Source: Campylobacterales bacterium
GTDB taxonomy: Bacteria; Campylobacterota; Campylobacteria; Campylobacterales; Nitratiruptoraceae
DNA length: 41,411 nt
Assembly (NCBI GenBank): GCA_027024145.1
Contig: JALVTF010000031.1
Span: 1-41,411, forward strand
Direction of reading: 5' to 3'
In this document: piece after piece, positions 26,274-31,741 of the stretch
Layout: each line of letters opens with the position of its first letter
Numbering within the stretch: position 1 is the first letter of the stretch
Translations under genes and position numbers: made by a program
Notes under the pieces: generated by a model
What the model saw: only the letters and a program-made list of their open reading frames with translations
Database searches by the model: none
Told to the model about the DNA's origin: nothing

Positions 26274-27086
26274 TTGCAACGACGCTTGGTGAGCAATATC
26301 ATTTCGCGAGGTTTTGGCAAATTTGCCAGCCACAGATTCCACCCCGTTTTGCAAAAGTTTATCAACCGATCCTATGTGCAGCTCATGGGACTCGATATGG
26401 ATGAGTTTCGAGACCCCGCACATTATGAGTCGCTCAATGCCCTTTTTACACGCGCGCTTGCAAAGGATCGTCCTATTGAGGATGGGTGTATCGCTCCATG
26501 TGATGCTTTGGTGACAGAGTGCGGAAAACTCCAAAAAGATAGAGCCCTCCAAATCAAAGGAATGTCCTATAGTATCGACAGTCTCTTGCGAGAGTGCGAT
26601 GCATCGGTGGTTCATGATGGAGAGTATGTCAATTTTTATCTCTCGCCGCGCGATTACCACCGCTACCATGTTCCTTGCGATATGCGAGTACATCGGGTGG
26701 TGCATATCCCGGGCAAGCTCTACCCGGTCAATCTGCGGTTTTTGCGCAAGAAGTTCGATCTTTTCGTCGAAAACGAGCGGGTGGTGCTCGAGTGCAGTAC
26801 CCAAGGGGGAGGACGCTTTTTTATGGTGCTCGTAGGTGCGCTCAACGTGGGAAAAATGACACTCGTTTTCGAGAGCCGCCTCCAGACCAACCATACACGT
26901 GAGGTAGCCATTTTCGAGTACGAAGATCTACTCATGCAAAAAGGGGAGCTTTTGGGCTATTTCAAAATGGGCTCGACGATTCTGCTCTTTTTCGAACCGG
27001 GACTTTTTATCTCATCACTACAGCGTGGCGACAAGGTGCGCTACGGACAAAGAATAGGAGTGCTCCATGAAAAACAATCTCAATGA
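26274..27086 (+). CDS. psd: Phosphatidylserine decarboxylase
   Basis: YHRYHVPCDMRVHRVVHIPGKLYPVN and the GST pyruvoyl cleavage motif in YFKMGSTILLFFEPG; TTG start after AAAAAAGGAAAAG. Confidence 0.94.
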   Translation: MQRRLVSNIISRGFGKFASHRFHPVLQKFINRSYVQLMGLDMDEFRDPAHYESLNALFTRALAKDRPIEDGCIAPCDALVTECGKLQKDRALQIKGMSYSIDSLLRECDASVVHDGEYVNFYLSPRDYHRYHVPCDMRVHRVVHIPGKLYPVNLRFLRKKFDLFVENERVVLECSTQGGGRFFMVLVGALNVGKMTLVFESRLQTNHTREVAIFEYEDLLMQKGELLGYFKMGSTILLFFEPGLFISSLQRGDKVRYGQRIGVLHEKQSQ

Positions 27087-27366
27087 AGAGGTAAGGCCAG
27101 AAGATGTCCTTATCGTAGAAGCCGAAATACTGCCCGACGGACTGGGTGGCTGGGTGCTTCGCTGCCACAACACGGAAACGGGCGAAGAGAGGATGTGCAA
27201 AAGCATCGAAGAGTACAGCGACTTTTTGAATGCCTGCGTCTATACCACCAATAAGAGCAATTTCCAGGCCGTCTGGCTTGAATCACCCAAAGCCACACCT
27301 GCGATGATAGCTGACGTACGTGCACAATTGATGGCCTTTTATGAGAAAATGGAGGGCTCATTTTGA
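27067..27366 (+). CDS. Conserved-type hypothetical protein (99 aa)
   Basis: ORF overlapping the psd 3' end by 20 nt, good composition: MKNNLNEEVRPEDVLIVEAEILPDGLGGWVLRCHNTETGEERMCKSIEEYSDFLNACVY. Confidence 0.7.
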   Translation: MKNNLNEEVRPEDVLIVEAEILPDGLGGWVLRCHNTETGEERMCKSIEEYSDFLNACVYTTNKSNFQAVWLESPKATPAMIADVRAQLMAFYEKMEGSF

Positions 27367-27415
27367 TTCGATAAGAAAAATGTATTATAAAGGAGAGGAG
27401 CGCAAATGTTAAAAA

Positions 27416-27430
27416 TGATAATGATTATCA
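27416..27430. promoter_or_regulatory. Fur box (perfect 7-1-7 inverted repeat)
   Basis: TGATAATGATTATCA: TGATAAT-G-ATTATCA. Confidence 0.88.
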
Positions 27431-27439
27431 ATTTAAGAT

Positions 27440-27445
27440 TATACT
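27440..27445 (+). promoter_or_regulatory. Putative -10 (TATACT) of the porin-feoAB operon
   Basis: AAGATTATACTAAG 10 nt downstream of the Fur box, so the box would cover the -35 region. Confidence 0.45.
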
Positions 27446-27492
27446 AAGCTTATTTTCTCTACCATTGTAACCAGATTTTGGCAGGAGAGAGA

Positions 27493-28635
27493 GTGAAGAG
27501 AATTTCTGTACTGTTTTTGGCTATCGCTTTTGGATGGGCGCAGGAGTCGCTACGATCGGCACTTGGCAAAAACGAAGAGAAGCTCCATCTCCAAGGAGAG
27601 CTTCGTATAGGATGGATAGCCGCGACGAATACCAAAAGCACTTTCGCTGCAGGAGGCCATCTGCATGCCGCGACACCTTTTTGGCATGGTCTACGTGCAT
27701 CCTTGAGCATCTATAGCGTCAACGATTTTGGATGGGGGCCTTCGAGCGCCAATGAGGATTTTTTCGGCTCCGATGCAAAGGGTTACACCTTCGTAAGCGA
27801 AGCGTTTGTGGAGTATGATAGAGGTATCGAAGTCAAAATAGGGCGTCAAAACATCGAAACGCCTCATGCCGATAGCGACGACATTCGCATGGTACCAAAC
27901 TACTTCGAAGCCGTCACGGCCAAAGCTACCCTTCGGGGTACAACGCTGCAAGCTGGCTACATCACGCGCATGGCGGGTTGGGAGAATGGCGCAAATCCTG
28001 CAAAATTCGTACGCCTTGGAAAAGTTTTGGGGCTCGGGCAAAAAATCGACGGTATGGGCTATATGGAAGTGCAAGGCTCCGTGGCTGGCTATGCCTGGCA
28101 AATATGGGGATATAATTTGAGCGACGTAGCGCATATATGTTACATCGAAGCGGCCAAAGAGCTGGAATGGGGCGATGCAAGTGAGCATGTCACTTTACAG
28201 CTCGATGTGGCACGGGGTGCCGGAAGAAAATATATGGGATATCTCCATTCCAAAACGGCAGGCATCATATCGCAAACGACGTACAAAGAGTGGACATGGA
28301 CGCTTGCGGCCAATAAGGAGTATGGCAAAAGCGCAGCCTTCGGGAGTTTCGGGGGAGGGCCTTTTTTTACCTCCATGGAGGATCTGACCATAGATACACT
28401 TGCGAGCAAGGAAGCCAAAAGTTACGTCTTAGGAACGGAGTATGGATTTGCCAAAGGGAGTATAGGCGCTATGGCTGGAAGATTTTTTGATGGGAACTAC
28501 GATGCAAAAGAGTACGATCTCTATGCGAATGTGACGCTTCCCTATGGATTCGTAGGTGATTTTGTCTTTGCGAAGGTGGTCGCGCCTCAAGATCGCTACA
28601 TAGCACGATGCATCATCAAAAGGAGCTTTCAATGA
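27493..28635 (+). CDS. Outer-membrane porin-like beta-barrel protein
   Basis: Signal peptide (M)KRISVLFLAIAFGWAQ; alternating amphipathic/aromatic-rich barrel-like sequence with EAFVEYDRGIEVKIGRQNIETPHADSDDIRMVPNYFEAV, typical of Campylobacterota OprD-like porins; GTG start behind AGGAGAGA. Confidence 0.75.
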   Translation: MKRISVLFLAIAFGWAQESLRSALGKNEEKLHLQGELRIGWIAATNTKSTFAAGGHLHAATPFWHGLRASLSIYSVNDFGWGPSSANEDFFGSDAKGYTFVSEAFVEYDRGIEVKIGRQNIETPHADSDDIRMVPNYFEAVTAKATLRGTTLQAGYITRMAGWENGANPAKFVRLGKVLGLGQKIDGMGYMEVQGSVAGYAWQIWGYNLSDVAHICYIEAAKELEWGDASEHVTLQLDVARGAGRKYMGYLHSKTAGIISQTTYKEWTWTLAANKEYGKSAAFGSFGGGPFFTSMEDLTIDTLASKEAKSYVLGTEYGFAKGSIGAMAGRFFDGNYDAKEYDLYANVTLPYGFVGDFVFAKVVAPQDRYIARCIIKRSFQ

Positions 28636-28862
28636 AGCTGTCACAGATGCATATCGGCCAAAGCGGCATTATCCGCAAAGTGCGAGCCAATGAACCTATC
28701 AAAGGAAGACTCTTTGCCATGGGTATCACAAAAGGCAATCGCATAACGCTTCTGGATCATACTCTCAAAAAGGAGACTTTCGAAGTGGATGTGGAAGGTA
28801 CCCGTGTAGCGCTGCGAAAAGAAGAAGCGGATGCGATAGAGGTGGAAGATGAAAAAGATTAG
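28632..28862 (+). CDS. feoA: Ferrous iron transport protein A
   Basis: MKLSQMHIGQSGIIRKVRANEPIKGRLFAMGITKGNRITLL; ATGA overlap with the porin stop. Confidence 0.9.
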   Translation: MKLSQMHIGQSGIIRKVRANEPIKGRLFAMGITKGNRITLLDHTLKKETFEVDVEGTRVALRKEEADAIEVEDEKD

Positions 28863-30945
28863 AGCAGTGATGGTGGGACAGCCCAACGTGGGCAAGTCCT
28901 CTATCATAAACGCCCTTACAAACGCACGCTTGCACGTGGGCAATTTCGCGGGTGTCACCGTCGAAAAGAAAGAGGTGACTCTCACATACAAAGAGTATGA
29001 CATCGATATCGTGGATCTGCCCGGTATCTACTCCCTCAACGCCTACACACCCGAAGAGCAGGTGAGCAAGAACTATCTTCTCGATGAATCGTATGACGTG
29101 ATCATCAACGTAGTGGATGCCAACGTCTTGCAGCGCAATTTGATTTTGACGCTGCAGCTTTTGGATATGAATCCCAAAATGATCTTAGTTATCAATATGA
29201 TCGATGAGGTGGAAAAACAGGGCGGTATGATCGATGCCGTGAAGCTCTCCGAACTCATCGGCCGTCCTGTGGTCTTGGCTTCGGCGAAAGAGAGACGAGG
29301 CGTGGAAGATATCATCGAGATGCTCATCGACGAGTTCGAACGTCCCGACAGACAACGCAAAATCTACTACGACGAGCGTATCGAAGAGGAGATTGAGAGG
29401 TTGAGCGAGATCTTGCTCAAATCACCCAAATTTATAAGTGCCGATATGGCACGTTTTTTCGTGGTGCGCCTTTTGGAAAAAGACCCCGATATCTACAAAA
29501 TCGTCCACGATCTACCGATTTTTTTGGAGTTGCACGAAGAGCTTGGTAAGAGCATCCATCGTCTCAAACTGGGGTTCGATGAAGAGAGTGCAGCCGATAT
29601 CATCGCTAACGAGCGCAACGCTATCGCCAAATCGCTGGTGATGCAGTGTATGCAAGCACCCAAAAAGGCCTCACTCACCGACAAAATAGACAAAATCTTG
29701 ATCCATCCCATCTTTGGTCTGCCGATATTCCTCTTTTTTATGTGGGGGCTCTTTCAGCTCACTTTCGAGATAGGTTCGCTTCCTGTGGACTATCTCGACG
29801 CCACCTTTACCAACTTCGCCAACTGGCTCAAACAGATTCTACCACCCGGCGATATCAACGCCATCATCACCGATGGTATCGTGCCTGCGGTGGGATCGGT
29901 GATCATGTTCTTGCCCAATATCTTGATCCTCTTTTTGGGTATCAATCTTTTAGAACAGACCGGTTACATGGCCAGAGCCGCCTTCTTGCTGGATGGCTTT
30001 TTGAAAAAATTCGGCCTGCAGGGCAAGGCCTTCATCCCTCTTGTCAGCGGATTTGGCTGTACGGTGCCCGCCTATATGGCTGCACGTACCCTCAAAAATC
30101 CAAAAGATCGCCTCATCACTATGCTGGTGCTGGGATTTATGAACTGTAGCGCCAGACTCCCTGTCTATGTGCTGCTCATCGCCGCTTTTTTTCCTACCAC
30201 CAATGCGGGCAACGTGCTTTTTGCCATCTACATCAGCGGTGCGATTTTGGGACTCATCGTAGCGAAGATCCTTCGCATCGTGCTTTTCAAGGGAGAGCCG
30301 GAACCCTTCGTGATGGAGATGCCGCCCTATCGCTTTCCTTCTCTTAAAGCCCTCGGGATGGAGCTGTGGCTCAAAGCGAAGCTCTTTTTGAAAAAGGCGG
30401 GTACTTTCATCGCTGGAGCGGCGATGATTATCTGGTTTTTGAGCAATTTCCCGCACAATCCTCAGCTCATCAAGCAGTATGAGCAAAAAATCGCACAGGC
30501 TCAGACAAAAGAGCAAAAAGTAGCCCTCGAAAACGAGCTGGCTGCGAAAAATCTCGAATACAGCTTCATCGGTCGCATCGGCAAGATGATCGAGCCTGTC
30601 TTTGCACCCCTTGGATTTGACTGGCGCCTGAGCGTAGCGACTATCAGCGGACTGGCCGCAAAGGAGGTGGTGGTCTCTACCCTTGCCACTCTCTATGCCG
30701 TGGGTGATGCCGATGAGAAGAGCTCTACGTTGATAGAGCGTCTGAGGCAAAACATCGATTTTAAGACAGCGATAGCACTCATAGTGATCATCATGATATA
30801 CAGCCCTTGTGTGGCGGCCATGAGTACATTCTATGCCGAAGTGCCGCGGTGGGCATGGAGAGCGTTCTACACCATCTATCCCAATGTGCTCGCTTGGCTG
30901 TTGGCCTATAGTGTGTATAATATACTTGCGCTATTAGGTTATTAA
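28849..30945 (+). CDS. feoB: Ferrous iron transport protein B
   Basis: VGQPNVGKSSIINALTNARLHVGNFAGVTVEKKE, DLPGIYSLNAY, NMIDE; Gate motifs with GFGCTVPAYMAARTL and SPCVAAMSTFYAE. Confidence 0.97.
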   Translation: MKKIRAVMVGQPNVGKSSIINALTNARLHVGNFAGVTVEKKEVTLTYKEYDIDIVDLPGIYSLNAYTPEEQVSKNYLLDESYDVIINVVDANVLQRNLILTLQLLDMNPKMILVINMIDEVEKQGGMIDAVKLSELIGRPVVLASAKERRGVEDIIEMLIDEFERPDRQRKIYYDERIEEEIERLSEILLKSPKFISADMARFFVVRLLEKDPDIYKIVHDLPIFLELHEELGKSIHRLKLGFDEESAADIIANERNAIAKSLVMQCMQAPKKASLTDKIDKILIHPIFGLPIFLFFMWGLFQLTFEIGSLPVDYLDATFTNFANWLKQILPPGDINAIITDGIVPAVGSVIMFLPNILILFLGINLLEQTGYMARAAFLLDGFLKKFGLQGKAFIPLVSGFGCTVPAYMAARTLKNPKDRLITMLVLGFMNCSARLPVYVLLIAAFFPTTNAGNVLFAIYISGAILGLIVAKILRIVLFKGEPEPFVMEMPPYRFPSLKALGMELWLKAKLFLKKAGTFIAGAAMIIWFLSNFPHNPQLIKQYEQKIAQAQTKEQKVALENELAAKNLEYSFIGRIGKMIEPVFAPLGFDWRLSVATISGLAAKEVVVSTLATLYAVGDADEKSSTLIERLRQNIDFKTAIALIVIIMIYSPCVAAMSTFYAEVPRWAWRAFYTIYPNVLAWLLAYSVYNILALLGY

Positions 30946-30955
30946 AGGATCGATT

Positions 30956-31741
30956 ATGAAGAGGATTTTCGTTTCTTTGCTTTTCGTCTTCCTTTTTTTA
31001 GGATGTACGAAAAACCCCTATACACACAGAGAGCAGCTCATTCTCATTTCGCCGCAGCAAGAGCTTCGCATGGGGCTCAGTGCCGAACAGCAGATACTTC
31101 ACAAAGCCAGACTTTCCCACAATCCATACTATATCGCTATGGTCAATCGCGTCGCTTCTCGCATCGCGCGTGTGGCCGAGGCAGAGTTTCATCCCCACTA
31201 TCAATGGGAATTCCATGTTCTTGAGTCGAAAAAGATCAATGCCTTTTGTCTTCCGGGAGGCAAGATCTTCGTCTATACGGGGCTTTTGAAACTCGTAGAC
31301 AACGATGACGAACTGGCGGCCGTCATAGGCCATGAGGTGGCGCACGCCATTTTGCGACACGGTAGCGAGAGAGTCTCTATGGCGATGCTGGGACGCATCG
31401 GGCATGAACTGCTCGCACGTGGACTACAAGTATCGGGCCATCAATGGGGACCTCTGTATGATTTGGCATACGGTGTCACCGCCCAGTACGGTGTGCTCTA
31501 TCCCTTCAGCCGCAAATTCGAATACGAAGCGGACCAACTGGGACTCTATCTCATGTACAAGGCCTGCTACGACCCCAATCAAGCTATTCGTTTTTGGTAC
31601 AAAATGATGAAGGCGTCGCGCGTCCATATTCCAGAGCTTCTCTCCACGCACCCCTCGGATATGCACCGTATCGAAGCGCTCAAACGCTATATCGTCAAAC
31701 TGCGCCGCATTCCGCGTAACTGTCAAGCGAGAATTCAATGA
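30956..31741 (+). CDS. M48-family metallopeptidase, predicted lipoprotein
   Basis: LFLGC lipobox; HEVAHAILRHGSERVSM (HExxH); FEYEADQLGLYLM; 10 nt after feoB with an AAAGGA site. Confidence 0.92.
   Translation: MKRIFVSLLFVFLFLGCTKNPYTHREQLILISPQQELRMGLSAEQQILHKARLSHNPYYIAMVNRVASRIARVAEAEFHPHYQWEFHVLESKKINAFCLPGGKIFVYTGLLKLVDNDDELAAVIGHEVAHAILRHGSERVSMAMLGRIGHELLARGLQVSGHQWGPLYDLAYGVTAQYGVLYPFSRKFEYEADQLGLYLMYKACYDPNQAIRFWYKMMKASRVHIPELLSTHPSDMHRIEALKRYIVKLRRIPRNCQARIQ

Follow-up and report, generated by a model that had tools for sequence, protein, structure and literature searches.

How ferrous iron reaches the periplasm is usually answered by crediting general porins with the outer-membrane step, and a locus in which a porin gene stands immediately before feoA and feoB raises the question of whether the Feo system can have an outer-membrane gate of its own. 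The locus considered here comes from a Campylobacterales bacterium of deep-sea type, whose nearest named relatives place it with Nitratiruptor and whose draft genome amounts to 1.53 Mb. It lies on contig C31; this contig, 41,411 nucleotides in full, is referred to below as the window. Its relevant features are:

27416..27430, no strand: Fur box, a perfect 7-1-7 palindrome TGATAATGATTATCA, read from the sequence, with an aligned box in nearly all relatives
27440..27445, + strand: -10-like TATACT, read from the sequence; weak, missed by a promoter consensus scan
27493..28635, + strand: outer-membrane porin of the OprD/Occ superfamily, 380 aa from GTG, with signal peptide and predicted 18-stranded barrel
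27847..27900, + strand: constriction loop L3, porin codons 119-136, conserved motif TPHADSDDIRMVPN
28321..28416, + strand: loop L7, porin codons 277-308, with the GGGPFFTSMEDLTID motif
28632..28862, + strand: feoA, 76 aa, 4-bp overlap with the porin stop
28849..30945, + strand: feoB, 698 aa, with G domain, Gate and FeoB_C
30956..31741, + strand: M48 metalloprotease, BepA/LoiP-like

An earlier note on this sequence had described most of this arrangement, and its details hold: the 15-bp palindrome and the TATACT just 3' of it are where it placed them, the porin stop (TGA, 28633-28635) and the feoA start (ATG, 28632) share a 4-bp ATGA at 28632-28635, and feoA overlaps feoB by 14 bp (28849-28862). 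The porin frame opens at TTG 27478, but the likely start is the GTG at 27493, where there is an AGGAGA ribosome site and from which the protein would begin with a clean signal peptide (MKRISVLFLAIAFGWA/QE). In profile searches FeoA matches PF04023 and FeoB matches PF02421 and TIGR00437 (the latter at 609.5 bits against a cut-off of 315.65), such that the G domain, Gate and FeoB_C of a Feo system are all present alongside FeoA. The M48 metalloprotease, of a barrel quality control type, begins 10 bp 3' of feoB, and in 12 family loci it likewise comes after feoB; it is possibly a fourth gene of the operon. On the other side, between psd and the porin, a 99-aa protein (27067-27366) without a confident match in Pfam or NCBIfam is kept in 15 family loci. 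The same genome carries a second, diverged feoAB on another contig (C53, locus L132, 2293-4652), its FeoB 37% identical, with neither a porin nor a good Fur box (best 9/14).

The palindrome sits in the 126-bp gap upstream of the porin, 9 bp from TATACT. It is the sole perfect copy of TGATAATGATTATCA in the 1.53-Mb genome, and in the window the sole match at two or fewer mismatches (0.16 expected). A promoter consensus scan, uninformative with 5 sites returned against 5.1 expected, did not pick out TATACT, for which reason we grade this -10 as weak; its -35 would fall within the Fur box, and Fur would therefore block the promoter. Between the porin start and the feoB start there is no second Fur box scoring at least 11/14. 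The components of a Fur regulon are in place, namely a Fur box over the putative promoter and a Fur protein gene on contig C95, one of two FUR-family genes in the genome. Taken together, the in-genome evidence points to one promoter shared by porin, feoA and feoB.

We propose that these genes form a Fur-repressed operon which probably encodes a two-membrane route of ferrous-iron uptake, consisting of an OprD/Occ-type channel and FeoAB. When iron is plentiful, Fur-Fe2+ would occupy the palindrome and all operon genes would be off; when iron is scarce, porin, feoA and feoB would be made together. The channel would let iron into the periplasm in small forms, of which Fe2+ itself is the likeliest. 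Entry through the barrel would be passive, and loops L3, L4 and L7 would assist it by forming a constriction that is acidic and bears methionines; FeoB with FeoA would then carry Fe2+ over the inner membrane in a GTP-dependent manner. We infer from the evidence that follows co-transcription, Fur binding and iron passage through the porin, and likewise a preference of the porin for Fe2+ over other cations.

By profile matches and predicted structure, the porin is a divergent channel of the OprD/Occ superfamily. It matches PF03573 (OprD) at 29.5 bits against a cut-off of 25; 62 of 63 porin homologues match this profile too (best 1.4e-34), and a PDB profile search returned solely OprD/Occ channels, with OpdC best at 2.5e-19. 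The earlier note had called the gene porin-like, and structure prediction gives an 18-stranded barrel of Occ/OprD-like fold (AlphaFold, pLDDT 90.2, pTM 0.85), with the top 33 PDB matches of the model all Occ/OprD or BenF-like. Two other identities were considered and rejected. Orthology with the OprB-type FeoP would call for OprB (PF04966), which the window porin does not match at E<=1 and which only one of the 63 homologues matches, weakly (0.002); a TonB-dependent receptor would have a plug domain and a 22-strand barrel, and the porin has no such Pfam match and 18 modelled strands. In common with the OprD/Occ proteins known from Pseudomonas and Acinetobacter (OccD1-3, OccK1-11, OccAB1-4) it has the 18-stranded barrel, the position of the L3/L7 constriction and PF03573, at a TM-score of about 0.7-0.8 and 11-18% identity.

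Is the adjacency of porin and feoAB more than an accident of gene order? Tightly packed adjacent genes are common in small genomes, and an ordinary porin could come to adjoin feoAB by chance. The relatives compared are mostly metagenome assemblies. In a set of 60, a porin homologue from the same genus and family nearly always has feoA and feoB immediately after it. This contiguity is kept within the window's family at porin identities of 29-57% (FeoB 70-82%), and a porin is present in 17 of the 18 family loci having enough upstream sequence; the exception (L060, genome G013) retains a syntenic psd-orf99 / feoA-feoB-M48 order, with a Fur box directly before feoA. When 299 genomes were sampled evenly from the order, 130 had a strong porin match, and by a hand count among the matches listed, in which porin coordinates were compared with feoB matches and locus stretches, the porin lies beside feoA or feoB in at least 67 of these 130, representing 10 families. 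A further scan of named loci (GTDB genomes), in which motif conservation is partly by construction because the L3 and L7 motifs were its seeds, found 45 of 80 adjoining feo, 21 as porin-then-feoAB and 24 as feoB-feoA-then-porin (mostly Sulfurovum), with Hydrogenimonas and Sulfuricurvum among the carriers. The porin also occurs beside a second, diverged FeoB type (827 aa, L204) and, in a Thiotrichaceae gammaproteobacterium (L213), beside feo with a FeoB of 812 aa. Linkage to feo must have been gained or lost at least 13 times to account for its distribution over a tree of 84 porins, which argues for repeated association and not one inherited accident. This recurrence across 10 families, together with the Fur boxes on unlinked copies described below, makes chance neighbourhood vanishingly improbable, and we regard it as refuted; conservation beside feoAB, on which the earlier note had staked its reading, is borne out. 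Since the pairing has been gained or lost many times in relatives, the pore is probably a dedicated iron entry gate.

In five loci from Sulfurovum and its relatives (L177, L186, L182, L229 and L168), feoB-feoA has a different OprD-like porin on either side; those upstream fall mostly in separate paralogue clades that lack the acidic L3 motif.

Regulation was compared across relatives with a simple match count out of 14, applied to 300 bp upstream and with a threshold of at least 12/14. Such a Fur box precedes 18 of 19 porin-first operons, whereas among 270 genes that served as controls from these loci just 4 have one (Fisher 8e-24); it also precedes feoB in 19 of 20 feoB-first operons. Stand-alone porins carry it in 17 of 33 assessable cases (Fisher 2e-15 against the same controls), the other 16 lacking both feo and a Fur box in their vicinity, and in one genome (G226, locus L246) a Fur-boxed porin occurs with no FeoB match of ordinary strength. 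In relatives without the porin the same box stands before feoA. As boxes are found before linked and unlinked porins, the porin joins the Fur regulon irrespective of feo adjacency. The shared Fur control suggested by the earlier note is supported by a box kept in relatives, and many Fur-boxed porins stand alone.

Iron partners other than Feo are also found. In Paraglaciecola (L201, 3553-5389) and another gammaproteobacterium (L214, 5243-6990), the porin comes right after genes for a P19-type Fe2+ transport protein (PF10634) and a Fer4_5 membrane protein, the P19-type gene being preceded in both by a 12/14 Fur box; this is a second iron system, unrelated to Feo. Elsewhere, a porin homologue (L230, 4721-7038) lies in divergent orientation to ahpC and a Fur/PerR-family gene and carries a 13/14 box at its start, possibly a peroxide-response link. 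In Thiodiazotropha, a CbiM-type cobalt uptake component (L231, 2547-3248) is encoded upstream of a porin homologue, with few genes in between. One might then suppose that the channel serves another divalent metal (Mn2+, Zn2+, Ni2+ or Co2+) and is iron-regulated by happenstance, or that its box is of PerR or Mur type. The boxes of the Fur family are alike, the L230 homologue does adjoin a Fur/PerR-family regulator and ahpC, and Bradyrhizobium offers in MnoP a dedicated Mn2+ porin under a Fur-family regulator, in an unrelated operon. The repeated linkage is, however, to feoAB and P19, both iron systems, and we consider this supposition very unlikely.

The strongest conservation in the porin family falls on L3 (TPHADSDDIRMVPN, residues 119-136), L4 (MAGWENG) and L7 (GGGPFFTSMEDLTID), which are kept while the remainder of the porin diverges and are absent from OprD-like paralogues in the same phylum; this conservation was read from an alignment set that had not been seeded on motifs. 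In comparison with these paralogues, linked porins carry a net charge of -3.0 versus -1.0 on L3 and of -3.3 versus -1.75 on L7, and have as family-specific residues D127, E164, E296, D301, M133, M160 and M295. Acidic and methionine residues of the kind that the earlier note had thought worth seeking in the constriction are therefore conserved in L3, L4 and L7 of the predicted barrel, their place in the constriction following from loop assignment and not from measured coordinates. These loops bear on whether the porin is instead a non-selective general porin, induced in low iron for outer-membrane permeability and aiding Feo with no preference for Fe2+. Small cations generally pass porins. In E. 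coli, OmpC/OmpF suffice for Fe2+, and genetics places OmpC and FeoB in one Fe2+ pathway (PMC7315122), a likeness to the present case, although these are general trimeric porins, osmoregulated and outside any feo operon. Across the order, numerous feoAB loci with a Fur box lack a neighbouring porin, and Feo therefore works without it. Against such a general role, Occ-type channels are narrow and selective, the pore being constricted by inward-folded L3 and L7 (PMC3260308), and the L3, L4 and L7 motifs persist amid divergence and are missing from same-phylum paralogues; we hold a general porin to be rather unlikely. The suggestion in the earlier note that the porin belongs to a Feo system covering both membranes accordingly gains from linkage, Fur box and loop residues, but the porin is not an obligatory part of Feo.

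Ancestry suggests a different cargo. The closest solved relatives of the porin carry carboxylates, and not all of the acidic L3 is special to the family: several Occ proteins have residues equivalent to D129/D130, making the DD-x-R of L3 partly a general Occ feature, and we have trimmed a reading in which the whole acidic L3 was unique. Furthermore, R372 aligns with Arg381 of OccK1 (PMC3260308), the central residue of a basic ladder of three arginines near the constriction, of which this one position was aligned. The carboxylate heritage is therefore not fully erased, and it may be that the channel passes small iron-carboxylate complexes (e.g. with citrate-like ligands), from which iron would be released or reduced in the periplasm before reaching FeoB. 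The OprD/Occ fold and sequence match fit this, as does L201, where genes near the porin encode an ABC system and its solute-binding protein. Strongly acidic constriction loops, however, disfavour anionic complexes, and the dominant partner is FeoB, an Fe2+ transporter; iron-carboxylate passage is accordingly a doubtful prospect, and we continue to favour Fe2+ itself. What distinguishes the porin from Occ channels is a new L3 tip (H/D/S), the L4 and L7 motifs, and membership of an iron regulon, where Occ channels belong to carboxylate catabolism.

A Fur-boxed porin with feoAB is not in itself a new idea. In Geobacter sulfurreducens an OprB-family porin with a Fur box was found in 2004 before feoA-feoA-feoB2 and a ferrous-iron role proposed (PMC545781); the order of Fur box, porin and feoAB is alike, but that porin is of the OprB family (PF04966) and from one species, and the window porin is of OprD/Occ type and spread over many genera. 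Acidithiobacillus followed in 2008 with FeoP, the Fur-boxed, OprB-like porin of feoPABC (PMC2631029), in acidophiles and with feoC present; the window porin differs from it in having no OprB match. In A. caldus, FeoP is detached from feo yet still Fur-boxed (PMC2631029), much like the stand-alone Fur-boxed porins described here. Within the literature searched, there was no report of a feo-linked porin in Campylobacterota, nor of a feo porin of OprD/Occ type. New here are the different porin family, its breadth and repeated recruitment, the Fur-boxed copies that stand alone, the linkage to P19 and the loop signature, L3 DTPHADSDDIRMxPN with L7 GGGPFFTSMED, which allows annotation of a porin family otherwise known only as 'OprD'.

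It is tempting to go further and suppose that in Campylobacterota and some gammaproteobacteria a whole clade of OprD/Occ-derived channels has, independently of the OprB-type FeoP, become a dedicated, Fe2+-preferring outer-membrane part of Feo, a proposition for which we find the case evenly balanced. If true, a Feo system spanning both membranes would have evolved more than once. A recurrent, Fur-controlled operon channel with an acidic constriction would in any case offer an alternative to general porins that is testable in cultivable Sulfuricurvum, Sulfurovum and Nitratiruptor.
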